The notes below the pieces were generated by a model, which made no database searches, was not told the origin of the DNA, and saw nothing but the letters and a program-made list of their open reading frames with translations. Positions 8,773-22,469 of a DNA stretch of 28,084 nucleotides are shown here, piece by piece. A program made the translations under genes and the position numbers. Origin of the DNA: a virus. Each line of letters begins with the position of its first letter. The stretch's first letter is position 1. Where the stretch lies: IMG/VR virus record IMGVR_UViG_3300020583_000199, positions 1-28,084 of that record; one strand, 5' to 3'.

Positions 8773-9736
8773 AACCTCACTCTCAACCATCGTCACCAGC
8801 ACGAACATAGACCTTGCTGTGTATGCCTGGATTGATGCCAAGTTTCACAAAAGCACGAGCGAGAAGACGCGCAAGATTTACACTGAGACGATCAATCAGT
8901 TTCGCGGCTGGCTCTCCATTCAGGGGCTAGACTTGGGTAGCGATCCTGCTTTGGTGGCATTCATGGCCCAAGCGTTTGCAGGACGCAGTACACGAGGCAA
9001 GCAGGTAGCAGCAGCGACGTTTAACCAGCGACTAGCCGTTCTTAGTTCGTTCTATACATATGCACACAAACAAGGCAAAGGAAGCCCGCTCTACTTAGAG
9101 CATAATCCAATCGAGACGCTAGAGCGAGCCAAAGTGCAGGAGTACGCAGGAGCACAACCGCTCGCAGGTGACGTTGTAGCTGAAGCGCTGGCCAGGATCG
9201 ATCAGGAGACATTGAACGGCAAGAGAGACTATGCCTTGCTCTGTATCTTGCTCCAAACTGGCAGGCGAGCACAGGAGGTTGCTGATCTCACCTGGGGGGA
9301 TGTCCAGATGAACAAAGGTCGTGCTACACTCACGTTTGAGCATACCAAAGGCAATGAGACGATGATAGACGAACTGCCTGCTAATGTAACTGATGCTCTG
9401 CTTCGCTGGCTCCATGCGTACTATGGGAGCGATCTTGAGAAGCTGGCAAGCGAGACGCCTATATGGGTGTCACTGGCTCATGATGGAAGCAACGGCAAAC
9501 AGTTGGGCTATCTCTCTATTAACGCGATCTGCAAAAAGCATCTGGGAACATCCAAGGTCCACGCCACGCGCCATACATTTGCGCATAGCATGGAGGCAAT
9601 CGGCGCTCCTGTGAGCGAGATACAGGCGAGATTGGGGCATAAGTCACTCGCTACCACAGGCCGTTATCTGGCGAGCCTGAAACGAGCAGAGAACCGACAC
9701 GGTGAGCAACTGGCTGCGCTGTTCGGTATTGAGTAA
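8762..9736 (+). CDS. int: Tyrosine recombinase / phage integrase
   Basis: 324 residues. It integrates and excises phage DNA by strand exchange between attP and attB through a 3'-phosphotyrosine link. Residues about 15-105 form the SAM-like core-binding domain; the catalytic domain follows with R169 (TGRRAQE), K196 (TKGN), H267 and R270 (HATRHTF), H293 (LGHKS) and nucleophile Y302 (TGRYL). All catalytic residues are present, so it is likely active. It lacks an obvious arm-binding N-terminal domain, so it resembles compact XerC/D-like integrases. The ATG at 8762 is preferred to a GTG at 8750 because GAGGTG precedes it. Confidence 0.95.
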   Translation: MENETSLSTIVTSTNIDLAVYAWIDAKFHKSTSEKTRKIYTETINQFRGWLSIQGLDLGSDPALVAFMAQAFAGRSTRGKQVAAATFNQRLAVLSSFYTYAHKQGKGSPLYLEHNPIETLERAKVQEYAGAQPLAGDVVAEALARIDQETLNGKRDYALLCILLQTGRRAQEVADLTWGDVQMNKGRATLTFEHTKGNETMIDELPANVTDALLRWLHAYYGSDLEKLASETPIWVSLAHDGSNGKQLGYLSINAICKKHLGTSKVHATRHTFAHSMEAIGAPVSEIQARLGHKSLATTGRYLASLKRAENRHGEQLAALFGIE

Positions 9737-11307: not shown

Positions 11308-11336
11308 ATCATAACATCATGTCGCTACCTTGTCAA
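11308..11336 (-). promoter_or_regulatory. Promoter with shared operator-like sequence
   Basis: Minus strand: TTGACA (11331-11336), 17 bases, TATGAT (11308-11313). The -35 and first spacer bases read TTGACAAGGTAGCGA, identical to 11787-11801 on the plus strand. Preceded by GGTA as in the promoter at 11722-11750. Confidence 0.78.
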
Positions 11337-11786: not shown

Positions 11787-11815
11787 TTGACAAGGTAGCG
11801 ATAGCAAGGTATACT
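11787..11815 (+). promoter_or_regulatory. Promoter of the plus-strand operon at 11.9 kb
   Basis: Perfect TTGACA (11787-11792), 17 bases, TATACT (11810-11815). CAAGGTA occurs twice, 14 bases apart (11791 and 11805), one copy over the -35 and one before the -10; the first belongs to the 15-base sequence shared with 11322-11336. Confidence 0.82.
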
Positions 11816-16012: not shown

Positions 16013-17401
16013 TTATTCTTCTGTCTCTTCGTTCAAGTTATCAAAACGCGTTAAATTGCCTGTAAACTTCAATGCGACCTCGCCAACAGGTCCGTTGCGG
16101 TGCTTGGCTACAATAATGTCTGCTGTTCCTTCCCGGTTGCTCTTACTCTTGCCATCCTGGTCATAGCCTGCGTAGTAATCGTCTCGATAGACAAACATCA
16201 CCACATCAGCGTCTTGCTCCAAATTGCCGCTGTCTCTCAAGTCGGATAATTGCGGCACCTTGCTTTGACGTGACTCGACGGCGCGTGAGAGTTGAGCCAG
16301 CGCCAACACTGGCACGTTGAACTCTTTCGCAATGCCTTTGAGCCCACGCGATATCTCGCCAACCTCTTGCACGCGATTGGCTTGTTTCGCTGGCGTATCA
16401 TTCTCAGGTTGCATCAATCCGAGATAGTCCACGATCACCAGATCAGGCGCGTGCTTTGTTTTTGCCTTGAGACGGCGCAGTTTACTACGCATAGAGCTGA
16501 TAGGAGAACCAGAGGTATCATCGATGTGAATAGGCAAGTCATTTAGCGTGTCGCTCGCCTCCACCAATTTGTCAAAATCTTCATGTGTCAGCCAACCGCC
16601 ACGAATAAGATTTGACGGAATACGGCTCTGTAACGAAAGTAAGCGAGTGCCTAACTGCTCTTTGCCCATCTCCAGGCTAAACACCGCAACGTTAAAATTT
16701 TTTTTTGCTGCGTTGTAGCCCATACCCATGCCAAGCGCAGTCTTGCCCATTGAAGGCCTGCCAGCCAACAAAATCAAATCGCCTCGCTGAAATCCGTTGG
16801 TCATTTTGTCAAGGTCGTGGAAACCGCTTGGTATCCCCTGGATAGTGCCGCGCTGGTCGTATGCCTTCTCTGCATTGGTCATACAACGCCCAATAATATC
16901 CCCTAGGTGCTCAAAATCAGATTGTGGTGCGTGCTCCATCGTCAGGTTGTACAACAGGCTCTCAACCGCGTTACGCGACTTATCAGGCTCAGAAATGGTA
17001 AAGCCAATAGTTGCTAATTGCTGAGAAGCAAAGAGGATTTGACGCTGCACACTTGTACCCAAAATCATGCTGGTATCTTGCATCAAATCGACTGACCACA
17101 GTTCATCGGCCAAACCCATGAGGCGCACAAGATCGCTTGCCTCCAAGTCCTCGCTCTTCTCCAAAAGATTAGCGAGCACAACAAAATCGGCTCCTTCTCC
17201 ATGCCGATGATAGTAATTCAGCATGATCTCGTAAAGTATTTTGTGGCGCACGATATAAAAATCTGTTGGCTTCAGAACCTCTACAACCACTTCTATTTTG
17301 TAGGGATTGCCAAGAAGCGTACCAAGCACGATTTCTTCAGCGCGTGCGTTGTAAGGCAGTTCAAGTTCTACGGCGCGTACAGGTCTGTCAGTAGTTTTCA
17401 T
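16013..17401 (-). CDS. dnaB: Replicative DNA helicase, DnaB family
   Basis: 462 residues, full family length. It unwinds DNA 5'-3' as a hexameric ring at the replication fork. The N-terminal helical domain (about 17-120) starts with PYNARAEEIVLGTLL; the RecA-like domain has Walker A GRPSMGKT at 214-221, SLEM at 242-245, Walker B VIVDYL at 322-327, DLRDSG at 387-392 and the arginine-finger region KHRNGP at 433-438. All core residues are intact. The start overlaps the initiator stop by ATGA, so helicase and initiator are made together, as with lambda O-P or initiator-helicase pairs of other phages. Confidence 0.96.
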   Translation of the reverse strand: MKTTDRPVRAVELELPYNARAEEIVLGTLLGNPYKIEVVVEVLKPTDFYIVRHKILYEIMLNYYHRHGEGADFVVLANLLEKSEDLEASDLVRLMGLADELWSVDLMQDTSMILGTSVQRQILFASQQLATIGFTISEPDKSRNAVESLLYNLTMEHAPQSDFEHLGDIIGRCMTNAEKAYDQRGTIQGIPSGFHDLDKMTNGFQRGDLILLAGRPSMGKTALGMGMGYNAAKKNFNVAVFSLEMGKEQLGTRLLSLQSRIPSNLIRGGWLTHEDFDKLVEASDTLNDLPIHIDDTSGSPISSMRSKLRRLKAKTKHAPDLVIVDYLGLMQPENDTPAKQANRVQEVGEISRGLKGIAKEFNVPVLALAQLSRAVESRQSKVPQLSDLRDSGNLEQDADVVMFVYRDDYYAGYDQDGKSKSNREGTADIIVAKHRNGPVGEVALKFTGNLTRFDNLNEETEE

Positions 17402-18660
17402 CGCGCAAACCTCCTTGTGTGTTCAACTAGTGGCTGAGAGCGGATAAGCTCTTGCCTTGCCGTTATTTCATCGAGTGCTTTTCTCCCTGGAGTAGTGGCA
17501 ACCTTTGCCTGTGGCTCTTGCTTGCGAGGATCAAAGGCAATAATCTTGCCTGGTTGCTCGCCATTTTTGAGTTTAGTAACTGCGCTCGCCATGTTCTTTG
17601 CGATCTCAGTAAAGGTCAAATCACGCCCACGAGCCTTGATGTCCTTGATGGAAAAGATAATTTGCTCATCGGTACGATCACCATTCACCAGATCATCAAG
17701 CGCCTCCTGCACAAAGGTCTTTGGTGAGCGCGGCAACGGCGTACCAACCTCTTTATCAGCCAGCGCCATGATGTCAGCCATGCGTTGCTTCCTCTGAGCG
17801 GCAATCTGCTTGGAGGTGAGCGGCGCGGCAGGCACATTGTTATTGTTCAGGTCTGATAGGAAGTCAATCTTCTTTTCCTGAAAGGTTGGTTGCTCAGAAG
17901 TAGATTGATTGTTGTGCTTTTCTTGTAGCCTAGAACTATCGGCTTTCGCTTCTGCAAGTTGGCGTCTCAACTCTGCGATTTGTTGGAGCAGAGCATCATC
18001 ATTTTTTTCTGGCGTTGGTTGCGAAAGCGTTTGGCTACAGGAAACTTCTTCGGGCGTGGGAAAAGATTCTTCTAAGTTCTTACTATTCTTATTATTCTTA
18101 GGGGGTACATTTACGCTCACATGTACAACAGTATGGTTGGTACTTCCAACAGTGTCGTTGGTATCGCCAACAGTATTGTTGTCACTACCAACAGTAGTTT
18201 CATCTGTAGAACTGTTGGTAGTACCAACAGTGTAGCGTGGTGTCTTGGCTTTTTTGCCTTGTGTGCAATCAGAATTGCGCTCTGCAATAAACCTGTGATT
18301 GACACAGAGATAGGTTTGCACACGGCCTTTGTTGCCTGTCTCAGCAGTCGGCTTTCCTTCCAGCAGCCCGATGATACCCAATCTCCAGAGCTTGTCTAGA
18401 ATACCCTCTGCTGGTCGTTTGCCTGCTCTGCTGCGAAGCGTGGTATGGTTAATCTGGATTTTAGCGGCAAGCTCTCTGAGCGAAACCGGATACACTTTTT
18501 CATCCCAGTAGAGTGATACCAGCCCGATAGCCACATACCGCTCAGAGATGCTTAGCTCTGAAAATCCCTGGATAAGCACATTGGCGGCTGGCGTGTAATT
18601 ATCTGTTAGACCTGGCCTAGCTTCCTTTTTAGGCTCCTGTGGACGTGCTACTTGCGCCAT
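17398..18660 (-). CDS. Replication initiator, lambda-O-like layout
   Basis: 420 residues. Residues 20-120 form a winged-helix-like DNA-binding domain (SLRELAAKIQINHTTLRS...GILDKLWRLGIIGLL). Residues 142-183 are a low-complexity T/N/V/G repeat (TVGTTNS, TVGSDNN, TVGDTND, TVGSTNH) that is the translation of DNA iterons. A coiled coil follows at about 222-250, and the C-terminus (about 310-365) is the expected helicase-contacting part. Initiators such as lambda O bind iterons lying inside their own gene and recruit the helicase encoded next door. GAGG lies 8 bases before the ATG. The family is inferred from architecture; sequence identity to O was not tested. Confidence 0.8.
   Translation of the reverse strand: MAQVARPQEPKKEARPGLTDNYTPAANVLIQGFSELSISERYVAIGLVSLYWDEKVYPVSLRELAAKIQINHTTLRSRAGKRPAEGILDKLWRLGIIGLLEGKPTAETGNKGRVQTYLCVNHRFIAERNSDCTQGKKAKTPRYTVGTTNSSTDETTVGSDNNTVGDTNDTVGSTNHTVVHVSVNVPPKNNKNSKNLEESFPTPEEVSCSQTLSQPTPEKNDDALLQQIAELRRQLAEAKADSSRLQEKHNNQSTSEQPTFQEKKIDFLSDLNNNNVPAAPLTSKQIAAQRKQRMADIMALADKEVGTPLPRSPKTFVQEALDDLVNGDRTDEQIIFSIKDIKARGRDLTFTEIAKNMASAVTKLKNGEQPGKIIAFDPRKQEPQAKVATTPGRKALDEITARQELIRSQPLVEHTRRFAR
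18077..18231. other. Probable replication origin: iterons plus AT-rich unwinding stretch
   Basis: Four 21-base near-palindromes start at 18133, 18154, 18175 and 18211 (spacing 21, 21, 36). Each has GTTG(G)-arms facing CCAACAGT; the last is a perfect palindrome with 10-base arms ACTGTTGGTA and TACCAACAGT around one base. A partial fifth copy (TACAACAGT) is at 18124-18132. Next to them, 18077-18103 holds three tandem 9-mers TTCTTA(C/T)TA in a strongly A/T-rich stretch, as expected of a DNA-unwinding element. All lie in the initiator coding sequence, as lambda ori lies in gene O. Confidence 0.78.
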
Positions 18661-18701: not shown

Positions 18702-18731
18702 TTGACACACCTTGTTAGAACTGTGTACACT
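18702..18731 (+). promoter_or_regulatory. Promoter of antisense-oriented RNA A
   Basis: TTGACA (18702-18707), 18 bases, TACACT (18726-18731) on the plus strand, facing away from the initiator gene. Its layout matches the promoter at 22104-22133, including the spacer core CTTG-TAG and GTGTA at the -10. Confidence 0.72.
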
Positions 18732-18737
18732 AGACCT

Positions 18738-18862
18738 GTACCCTCGATTAAGGTACAGAAAGACTCTCGACAACGTTTGCGCGTTGCCTGCGTCTTGTCT
18801 CACGGTCCATCGAGCAGATTGCCGCCTGTAGATGGGCCGAAGTCATTTTTGGGGCTATCCCC
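18738..18862 (+). ncRNA. Structured RNA A, OOP-like position, opposing the replication operon
   Basis: No plus-strand gene follows the promoter. The expected transcript folds into: P1 CTGTACC/GGTACAG (18736-18742/18752-18758), P2 GACA/TGTC (18769/18796), P3 AACG/CGTT (18772/18782), P4 GGTCCATC/GATGGGCC (18804-18811/18831-18838) with a 19-base loop containing ATTGCCGCC, and P5 GGGG/CCCC (18851/18859) after a T5 run. RNA B at 22140 has the same elements. The U-G pair in P4 is a mismatch if the minus strand is the RNA, so the plus strand is favoured. It runs opposite to the initiator leader and reaches the stop codon of the gene 18862-19065, like lambda OOP between cII and O. The 3' end is unknown; no U-tail follows P5. 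Confidence 0.62.
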
Positions 18863-19065
18863 TACTTGTTCAGGATTGCTAGTATCTCCTGCTCGTTCAT
18901 TGCTTCCAGCCTGGAAACAGGTGCAATGTACTTCCAATTTCGTTGACGCCAATTCTGAGCGTCTCGCTTGGTTGCGTAGAGATAAAGCTTGCCTTTCCTC
19001 CTTGGTCGCTCTTGTGGCGTCCATCCTTGTGCAGTGATGAACTGTTTTACTTGCTCCAAGTCCAT
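18862..19065 (-). CDS. Small basic protein, first gene of the replication operon
   Basis: 67 residues, rich in K, R, Q and W (ERPRRKGKLYLYATKRDAQNWRQRNW), ending in an acidic helix (MNEQEILAILNK). Probably nucleic-acid binding. No family recognised. AAGGAG precedes the ATG and a strong promoter lies at 19089-19117. Position matches that of cII in lambda (before oop and O), but no sequence similarity to CII is claimed. Confidence 0.75.
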   Translation of the reverse strand: MDLEQVKQFITAQGWTPQERPRRKGKLYLYATKRDAQNWRQRNWKYIAPVSRLEAMNEQEILAILNK

Positions 19066-21177: not shown

Positions 21178-21610
21178 TAGCTTGCTCCTTGCTCTGCTGT
21201 TGTTCAACATGCAGATCGCCCAGACCATAGGCGGTTTTACGAACCTTGATCTCAGCAGAGATAGCGCTCCATGCCTTGCTGCAAGCGTGGCTATAACGCT
21301 CTGCCTCCACAACACCAGTTAGCGTGTCGATCACTGGCAAGGTTGACACGTCAGGCGCTTCAGCCAATTTCCATGCCTCTTGTGGCATTTGATGGAGGTT
21401 GATTGAATAGTTCCAGTTCATTTCGCGCTGTGCTTGCAGATACCTGAGACGTGCGCCTGCCCATTGGTGGTAAAGGTCCAAGTCTTCCCAACTATCGGTC
21501 TGTGGGAACTCAGCATAGATGCGCTCTGGATCGTCAGGATTGAACACCTCAAGGTTCATCTCCTGTGCGACCTGCTTCAAGATCGCTGCGAACTCTGGCG
21601 TTTGGTTCAT
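21170..21610 (-). CDS. Hypothetical protein, 146 residues
   Basis: Not recognised. Soluble, with DSWEDLDLYHQWAGARLRYL near residues 40-60 and a helical middle. GGAG lies before the ATG at 21610, which overlaps the stop of the upstream gene by ATGA; its own stop overlaps the next gene by 8 bases. Tight coupling suggests it belongs to the nucleotide/DNA-metabolism group. Confidence 0.74.
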   Translation of the reverse strand: MNQTPEFAAILKQVAQEMNLEVFNPDDPERIYAEFPQTDSWEDLDLYHQWAGARLRYLQAQREMNWNYSINLHQMPQEAWKLAEAPDVSTLPVIDTLTGVVEAERYSHACSKAWSAISAEIKVRKTAYGLGDLHVEQQQSKEQANG

Positions 21611-22062
21611 TTCGCGTTCTCCTGTGCTTTCCACTGCTCAAACCGCTCTTTGTACTGGAGGTCAATTGCGAGTTGGACCAATGCAGGATCGATGGTAAAT
21701 GGCTCCATCTCGATCCGTACCGTTTCGCCGCGATCCATAGCCTCTTGCGCGCTGGCGAGATCGGGGTAAGTTTTCGGCTCATCAGTGGTCTTCAAAAACA
21801 CCTGTTTCCAGGAATCGTCTTTCGGCAAAACTGGCGGCAATGCCTCTTTGCCTGCCTCAGAAACGCGGTATACAGGCGTCTTTTGCCCATTCCATAACTC
21901 TTCACCAGCAGGCTCTAGCAGGCCACGCTTGATACAGGCGTGTACAGTGTTAATGTTGAGGTTGCGTTTGCCGTTGGGATTGTAGTTGTAACCAAAGCCG
22001 GTTGTGGTGCTGTCTCCAATCTCCTCCAATGTGTGGAGCATTAACTGTGTTGGCTGTTTCAT
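21607..22062 (-). CDS. Winged-helix-like protein, 151 residues
   Basis: Residues 8-75 (NINTVHACIKRGLLEPAG then YRVSEAGKEAL) fit a winged helix: recognition helix, 'kRGLlep', then a beta wing ending in the MarR/PadR-like 'R-SEAGKEAL'. The C-terminal half is helical and acidic. AAGGAG precedes the ATG at 22062. RNA B is transcribed from just upstream in the opposite direction. The CACTGT/ACAGTG inverted repeat at 22084-22100 lies in its leader and may be an operator or hairpin. Confidence 0.72.
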   Translation of the reverse strand: MKQPTQLMLHTLEEIGDSTTTGFGYNYNPNGKRNLNINTVHACIKRGLLEPAGEELWNGQKTPVYRVSEAGKEALPPVLPKDDSWKQVFLKTTDEPKTYPDLASAQEAMDRGETVRIEMEPFTIDPALVQLAIDLQYKERFEQWKAQENAK

Positions 22063-22103: not shown

Positions 22104-22133
22104 TTGACTTAACTTGCTAGCATCGTGTAAACT
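22104..22133 (+). promoter_or_regulatory. Promoter of antisense-oriented RNA B
   Basis: TTGACT (22104-22109), 18 bases, TAAACT (22128-22133) on the plus strand. It aligns with the RNA A promoter at 18702-18731 without gaps: same spacing, common CTTG-TAG spacer core, and GTGTA before -ACT. Confidence 0.68.
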
Positions 22134-22139
22134 GATACT

Positions 22140-22268
22140 AGCCTCATTGATTTGGGGTACAAAGAACCTCTAGACAGTGCTTAGAGCATTGCCTTGATGT
22201 CTTTGGTTATGGGCCACCATTAGGATTGCCGCCGCTTGGTGGCTCAAATGATTTTTGGGGATAGCCCC
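22140..22268 (+). ncRNA. Structured RNA B, paralogue of RNA A
   Basis: Same helices as RNA A: P1 CCTC/GGGG (22142/22154), P2 AGACA/TGTCT (22172-22176/22198-22202), P3 GTGCT/AGCAT (22177/22185), then conserved TTGCCTTG, P4 GGGCCACC/GGTGGCTC (22211-22218/22238-22245) with a 19-base loop holding ATTGCCGCC, an ATTTTT run and P5 GGGG-ATAG-CCCC (22257-22268). Against RNA A, P4 changes U-G to G-C and U-A to C-G while staying paired. It ends near the stop codon of the excisionase-like gene at 22272 and runs opposite to the leader of the gene 21607-22062. No U-tail follows P5, so the true 3' end may lie inside the antisense of the next gene. Confidence 0.6.
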
Positions 22269-22271
22269 TGA

Positions 22272-22469
22272 TTAGTTCTGCTTTTGTTTTTTCTTCAGGT
22301 CGTTCAAGTAGTCCTGAAACTCCTGACTGTCTATGCGCCATGAGCCAGCTATCTTGATGCCGGGGATGACGCCTTGACGCAGGAGCCGCAAAACGGTTGG
22401 CTCTGAAAGCCGTAACTTCTTGGCAACCTCTGCTGGTGTAAGCATTTCCTCCTCTGACATAACTAACAT
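22272..22469 (-). CDS. AlpA/excisionase-type HTH protein
   Basis: 65 residues. MLTPAEVAKKLRLSEPTVLR then LLRQGVIPGIKIAGSWRI and a helical tail is the standard pattern of MerR-like helix-turn-helix proteins of the excisionase family (HTH_17): two helices, turn, 'G.iPg.ki...wri'. Such proteins bend DNA at att sites or regulate transcription. AAGGAG precedes the ATG; the gene has a strong promoter with palindromic surroundings. Confidence 0.9.
   Translation of the reverse strand: MLVMSEEEMLTPAEVAKKLRLSEPTVLRLLRQGVIPGIKIAGSWRIDSQEFQDYLNDLKKKQKQN

Follow-up and report, generated by a model that had tools for sequence, protein, structure and literature searches.

The phage record IMGVR_UViG_3300020583_000199 comprises 28,084 bases, which were analysed at their full length ("the window" in the following), and carries genes for a terminase, an integrase, a DnaB helicase and a methylase. 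It is a temperate phage in which a small-RNA gene, composed of a promoter, a folded RNA and an end hairpin, is present in two diverged copies, RNA A (unit 18702-18863, +) and RNA B (unit 22104-22269, +), which are alignable along their entire length. Both units are antisense to a minus-strand gene array, where they are located in gaps of approximately 200 bases, their ends being at the preceding gene's stop codon.

Gene neighbourhoods of the two units

On the minus strand, the order at RNA A is promoter-like site, 67-aa gene, RNA A, 420-aa gene and DnaB gene:

18702-18731, +: predicted promoter of RNA A, TTGACA-18-TACACT
18736-18863, +: body of RNA A, paralogous to RNA B
18862-19065, -: 67-aa gene, its stop touching RNA A; promoter-like site at 19117-19089
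17398-18660, -: 420-aa gene, putatively initiator-like, that follows RNA A and contains the ACTGTTGG iterons (18125-18231)
16013-17401, -: DnaB-type replicative helicase gene

Neither the charged 67-aa protein nor the product of the 420-aa gene has a family match. For the former, a single-sequence structure model is confident (pLDDT 88), and the fold closest to it is that of a bacterial Pur-alpha protein (E=0.29, not significant); for the latter, the predicted model of the N-terminus is too poor to use. It is the iterons together with the position before DnaB that suggest an initiator-like role of the 420-aa gene. These ACTGTTGG repeats (18125-18231, -) are contained within the gene, mostly at a 21-bp spacing and with inverted halves, and are a probable replication origin within the initiator gene. 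The replication module is the better-supported neighbour of RNA A, in a layout like that of lambda cII-OOP-O-P.

The order at RNA B is promoter-like site, 65-aa gene, RNA B and 151-aa gene:

22104-22133, +: predicted promoter of RNA B, TTGACT-18-TAAACT, spacer shared with A
22138-22269, +: RNA B body, approximately 130 nt including the last hairpin; first base approximate, placed from the -10 box
22272-22469, -: 65-aa HTH_17/excisionase-like gene, its stop adjoining RNA B; promoter-like site at 22527-22499
21607-22062, -: 151-aa gene past the gap on the minus strand, no assigned family; start placed by its ribosome binding site

No origin is found near RNA B, which is far from the iterons. The adjoining genes, one coding for 67 aa without a family and the other for a 65-aa HTH_17 protein, are unrelated, which does not bear out the original prediction of a small RNA family with partner genes. 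Excisionase/HTH_17-type genes occur three times in this phage (22272-22469, 25174-25449 and 26085-26297, all -). Elsewhere in the window, two promoter-like sites at 11308-11336 (-) and 11787-11815 (+) both carry TTGACAAGGTAGCGA, perhaps the operator of an immunity region.

Extent, fold and strand of the copied unit

Upon local alignment, the homology between the two units extends from the -35 box through the final GGGG-n4-CCCC hairpin (score 48 versus a shuffled mean of 16), and the 60-base flanks on either side, with a likeness at the shuffled level, are unrelated. Hence, the copied item is the plus-strand transcription unit only; no third copy is present within the 28,084-base window. The predicted promoters are of the sigma-70 type and have the 18-base spacing in common, as had been noted earlier. 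Their spacer is conserved at 22 of 34 bases, and the spacer pattern TTGACNNANCTTGYTAGNANNGTGTANACT, built from these two copies, has two matches in the window against none expected.

The best-kept stretches of the RNA bodies are (i) GATTGCCGCC in the P4 loop, (ii) TTGCCT at the end of P3, and (iii) ATTTTTGGGG before the last hairpin. The shared loop sequence ATTGCCGCC is indeed present in both copies, where it extends to GATTGCCGCC and is contained in a 19-base P4 loop each time. The motif TTGCCTkG, proposed to be conserved and unpaired, is absent from RNA A, which has TTGCCTGC instead; only TTGCCT is common to both copies, and it is not fully unpaired, given that its TTG pairs within P3. The shared end of the form ATTTTT-GGGG-n4-CCCC was recovered as TTTTTGGGGnnnnCCCC, found exactly twice in the window. 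The claim that a small gene's stop marks the end of each copy likewise stands: the hairpin of A reaches just the last base of the stop codon in ORF 18862-19065 (-), a one-base overlap, and that of B ends 3 bases before the stop codon of ORF 22272-22469 (-). A terminator-like score of P5 is obtained only in B, with a poor T-run. A role of the end hairpin as a terminator for the minus-strand genes was rejected due to the T-run being on the wrong side, as was a conserved small ORF, the frame of which is broken by indels between the copies.

The hairpins to which the following comparison refers are:

22175-22191, +: P3 of RNA B, CAGTGCT-TAG-AGCATTG, followed by the CCT of TTGCCT (22189-22194)
22211-22245, +: P4 of RNA B, 8 pairs and a 19-base loop
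22224-22233, +: conserved loop GATTGCCGCC of RNA B
22251-22268, +: end of RNA B, P5, ATTTTTGGGG-n4-CCCC, weak terminator-like hairpin
18804-18838, +: P4 of RNA A; its loop GATTGCCGCC spans 18817-18826

In a structure-guided alignment, all 14 pairs of P3 and P4 are standard in both copies despite changes at 9 of the 28 paired bases, three pairs having both bases replaced and three others a single base. P3 contributes one double and two single changes and P4 two double and one single change, the pairing being kept in all of them. The compensatory changes described for P4 (T-G to G-C and T-A to C-G) are confirmed; in addition, there is a G-C to G-T change in P4 and a C-G to T-A change in P3. When nine changes were placed at random, all 14 pairs were kept in 5.5e-5 of the trials, which is an optimistic figure, as the helices were picked with their pairing already known; based on two sequences, the covariation is good evidence for kept pairing and not equivalent to an R-scape result. 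P1 and P2 form in both RNAs in a differing register and, thus, are not evidence of conservation.

The consensus folding energy is -27.8 kcal/mol on the plus strand versus -17.8 kcal/mol on the minus strand. Since the shuffle z-scores are equal for RNA A (-3.6 on either strand) and unequal for RNA B (-3.2 on plus, -1.7 on minus), the strand is told by B together with the consensus, not by A alone. The G-U pairs, previously suggested to mark the plus strand, are present in both copies; read on the minus strand, they would become A-C mismatches. Ranked by fold strength among 1398 windows of 130 bases of this phage, RNA A is 19th and RNA B 11th; given that other windows fold as strongly, the evidence resides in paralogy and kept pairing rather than in raw stability. 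Alignment, flank and fold data agree with the earlier view that one structured RNA is present on the plus strand as two diverged copies. RNA A and RNA B are a real paralogous pair of structured and probably transcribed units; paralogy, kept pairing, plus-strand preference and layout are all shown by the present analysis.

Homologues, lambda OOP and a positional counterpart

Searches of Rfam (including c4 antisense, 6S and pRNA) returned no match to RNA A or B at the gathering score; relaxing the cut-off to E<=10 added only two matches, which lie far below threshold and are put down to chance. Exact patterns (loop plus end, core plus loop, promoter spacer, and 5' core plus loop) had unrelated matches or none in IMG/VR, and blastn against GenBank phages and plasmids gave nothing meaningful. 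A covariance model found no real homologue among DnaB relatives or terminase relatives (64-72% identity), in 52 phage loci, or in 796 genomes from two phyla (397 and 399, respectively); absence from all these collections is weak evidence. Two weak candidates were rejected, one overlapping a gene start (L134:4646-4769, 17.9 bits) and the other inside a coding gene (L168:1501-1632, 24.9 bits), and a scan of genome contigs with DnaB, yielding mostly apparent cellular dnaB genes, was of no help for homologues. No "OOP-like" report was found in the literature searched.

OOP RNA of phage lambda is a classic antisense RNA. It is antisense to the cII mRNA and works through RNase III (PMC12197685), while the effect of its promoter pO on replication has been proposed to be due to convergent transcription and not to OOP itself (PMC3985674). 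The lambda gene order is cII, antisense OOP, O with four internal iterons, and P. RNA A is comparable in being a short RNA with its own promoter opposed to the early/replication operon, in being located in the gap before an initiator(-like) gene, in ending at the upstream gene, and in having iterons inside the initiator-like gene, which is followed by the DnaB helicase gene. RNA B shares the opposed promoter, but is not located before an initiator and lacks the iteron and helicase setting. OOP, at 77 nt, reaches into the coding 3' end of the gene upstream, whereas both RNAs of the present phage measure approximately 130 nt, have more hairpins and what may be a weak terminator, and are predicted to stop at the stop codon; furthermore, the unit occurs a second time (B), at a distance from the origin, and the loops are conserved between the copies.

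At the sequence level, local alignment with OOP is no better than with shuffles (0.28 for A, 0.14 for B). The terminator hairpin of lambda OOP (L163, cII-O minus strand) has TTGCCGCC, 8 bases that are also contained in the P4 loop of A and B; given that the overall likeness is not above shuffles (0.14-0.28), this is probably chance. The lambda cII-O stretch has no credible Rfam match itself, so that the absence of A and B from Rfam does not count against an OOP-like nature. It is by their placement, and not by membership in a sequence family, that the two RNAs are best described as phage antisense RNAs of the OOP kind.

Other phage systems show partial likeness. Convergent antisense pairs in prophages include type I toxin-antitoxin systems (e.g., bsrG/SR4 and txpA/RatA), with which the present loci share the tail-to-tail arrangement of a small gene and an RNA gene; unlike there, the proteins are a 65-aa HTH and a 67-aa charged one, not hydrophobic toxins, and the predicted RNAs do not overlap with the coding ends. 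The c4 and P4 CI immunity RNAs, the put RNAs of HK022 and the pRNA of phi29 are phage RNAs, too, in which a defined structure presents functional loops; the A/B pair is likewise structured and has loops, but differs in orientation or role and has no Rfam match.

A positional counterpart was found in the record IMGVR_UViG_3300015203_000002 (L013), which is related via DnaB (44% identity); there, a 436-aa gene that contains iterons (9127-9226) immediately precedes DnaB. The gap before this gene contains an opposite-strand promoter, TTGACA-17-TACAAT (11 of 12 matches):

8560-8658 of L013, -: pO-like unit with opposed promoter, short predicted RNA and strong terminator

Among 57 strong promoters from five phages, that of RNA A included, the L013 promoter is the closest to RNA A's (score 29, next 17). 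The unit resembles RNA A in this promoter, in its position before an iteron-bearing gene and DnaB, and in ending at the stop of a small gene; it differs from both RNAs in that the predicted RNA is shorter (approximately 80 nt), its body is unrelated upon local alignment, it has a strong intrinsic terminator, which overlaps the stop of the upstream 75-aa gene, and it is present in a single copy. This 75-aa gene is a third, different gene at the corresponding place, which leaves the idea of partner genes unsupported there, too. No such unit of promoter, RNA and terminator was found in the other DnaB relatives examined. By this comparison, L013 appears to carry a second OOP-like unit with an RNA body unrelated to that of A and B. 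The OOP-like position recurs at least once, and the A/B body is one version of its possible occupants.

Possible modes of action and significance

We give a probability of roughly one half to RNA A and RNA B being two paralogous OOP-like antisense transcription units, and it is by inference that we speak of their transcription, 3' ends and mode of action. In favour of this reading are the restriction of the homology to the unit itself, the kept pairing with its three double changes, the antisense orientation of both copies, their placement in gaps of approximately 200 bases and their ending at a stop codon, the lambda-like layout at copy A, and the L013 unit with its similar promoter; against it are the poor T-run of P5, the lack of overlap with coding ends, the lack of an origin near RNA B, the missing sequence likeness to OOP, the unrelated RNA body in L013, and an initiator role that is itself inferred. 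The likely action is in cis: the promoter would oppose readthrough from the upstream small gene into the next minus-strand gene, and the intercistronic mRNA, to which the RNA is complementary throughout, would be paired with it and thereby processed or repressed. Since the loop GAUUGCCGCC is kept in both copies, each RNA could also pair with the mRNA of the other operon, thereby linking the two operons. Identical loops in two places do not fit a pure cis role, for which they are not needed; cross-pairing or a trans partner would explain them, and the conserved loop hints at an additional partner in trans. Pairing of RNA A with the ribosome binding site of its own neighbour was rejected as a candidate, ranking only 27th once accessibility was counted.

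A possible, albeit unlikely, alternative is a structured small RNA that acts in trans, binding a common partner—a host or phage protein, or mRNAs—through its P4 loop GAUUGCCGCC and the UUGCCU that follows P3, with the antisense location being incidental. Such a role would account for loops that are identical although the copies have diverged and their stems have changed without loss of pairing, and for two copies in different places next to unrelated neighbours; but loop-to-mRNA target predictions within the phage (host mRNAs being outside their scope) gave no signal above shuffled loops, and an incidental placement leaves the antisense orientation and the stop-codon ending of both copies unexplained. 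A bolder version, also unlikely and, if anything, slightly more so, is a new class of phage regulatory RNA, in which two paralogues with the shared loop GAUUGCCGCC bind a common trans partner and couple the replication operon with the excision/regulator operon in a two-copy OOP-like network.

Rather improbable is the alternative that the promoter (through interference, or DNA opening near the origin) or a protein-binding site in its spacer is the functional element and the RNA a by-product. The spacer conservation between the copies, the L013 unit, alike in promoter and position and unlike in RNA body, and the lambda precedent of convergent pO transcription proposed to matter for replication (PMC3985674) are consistent with it, but it leaves the compensatory changes and the kept RNA loops unexplained, and copy B is far from the iterons. 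Very improbable is a minus-strand intercistronic or leader structure of the mRNA (attenuator or processing site) with the plus-strand promoter as a by-product, which would suit the location between co-directional minus-strand genes and the equally strong folding of either strand of RNA A, but has against it the weaker minus-strand z-score of B and consensus energy, the A-C mismatches replacing G-U pairs of both copies, and the conserved promoter that opens the unit on the plus strand.

Because the same RNA is present in copy B at a distance from any origin, the old question of whether the RNA or its promoter is the element that matters becomes testable. Together, a duplicated, fold-keeping unit in a phage far from lambda and the counterpart in L013 with a different RNA suggest that an antisense RNA next to the replication module is a more widely used phage design.
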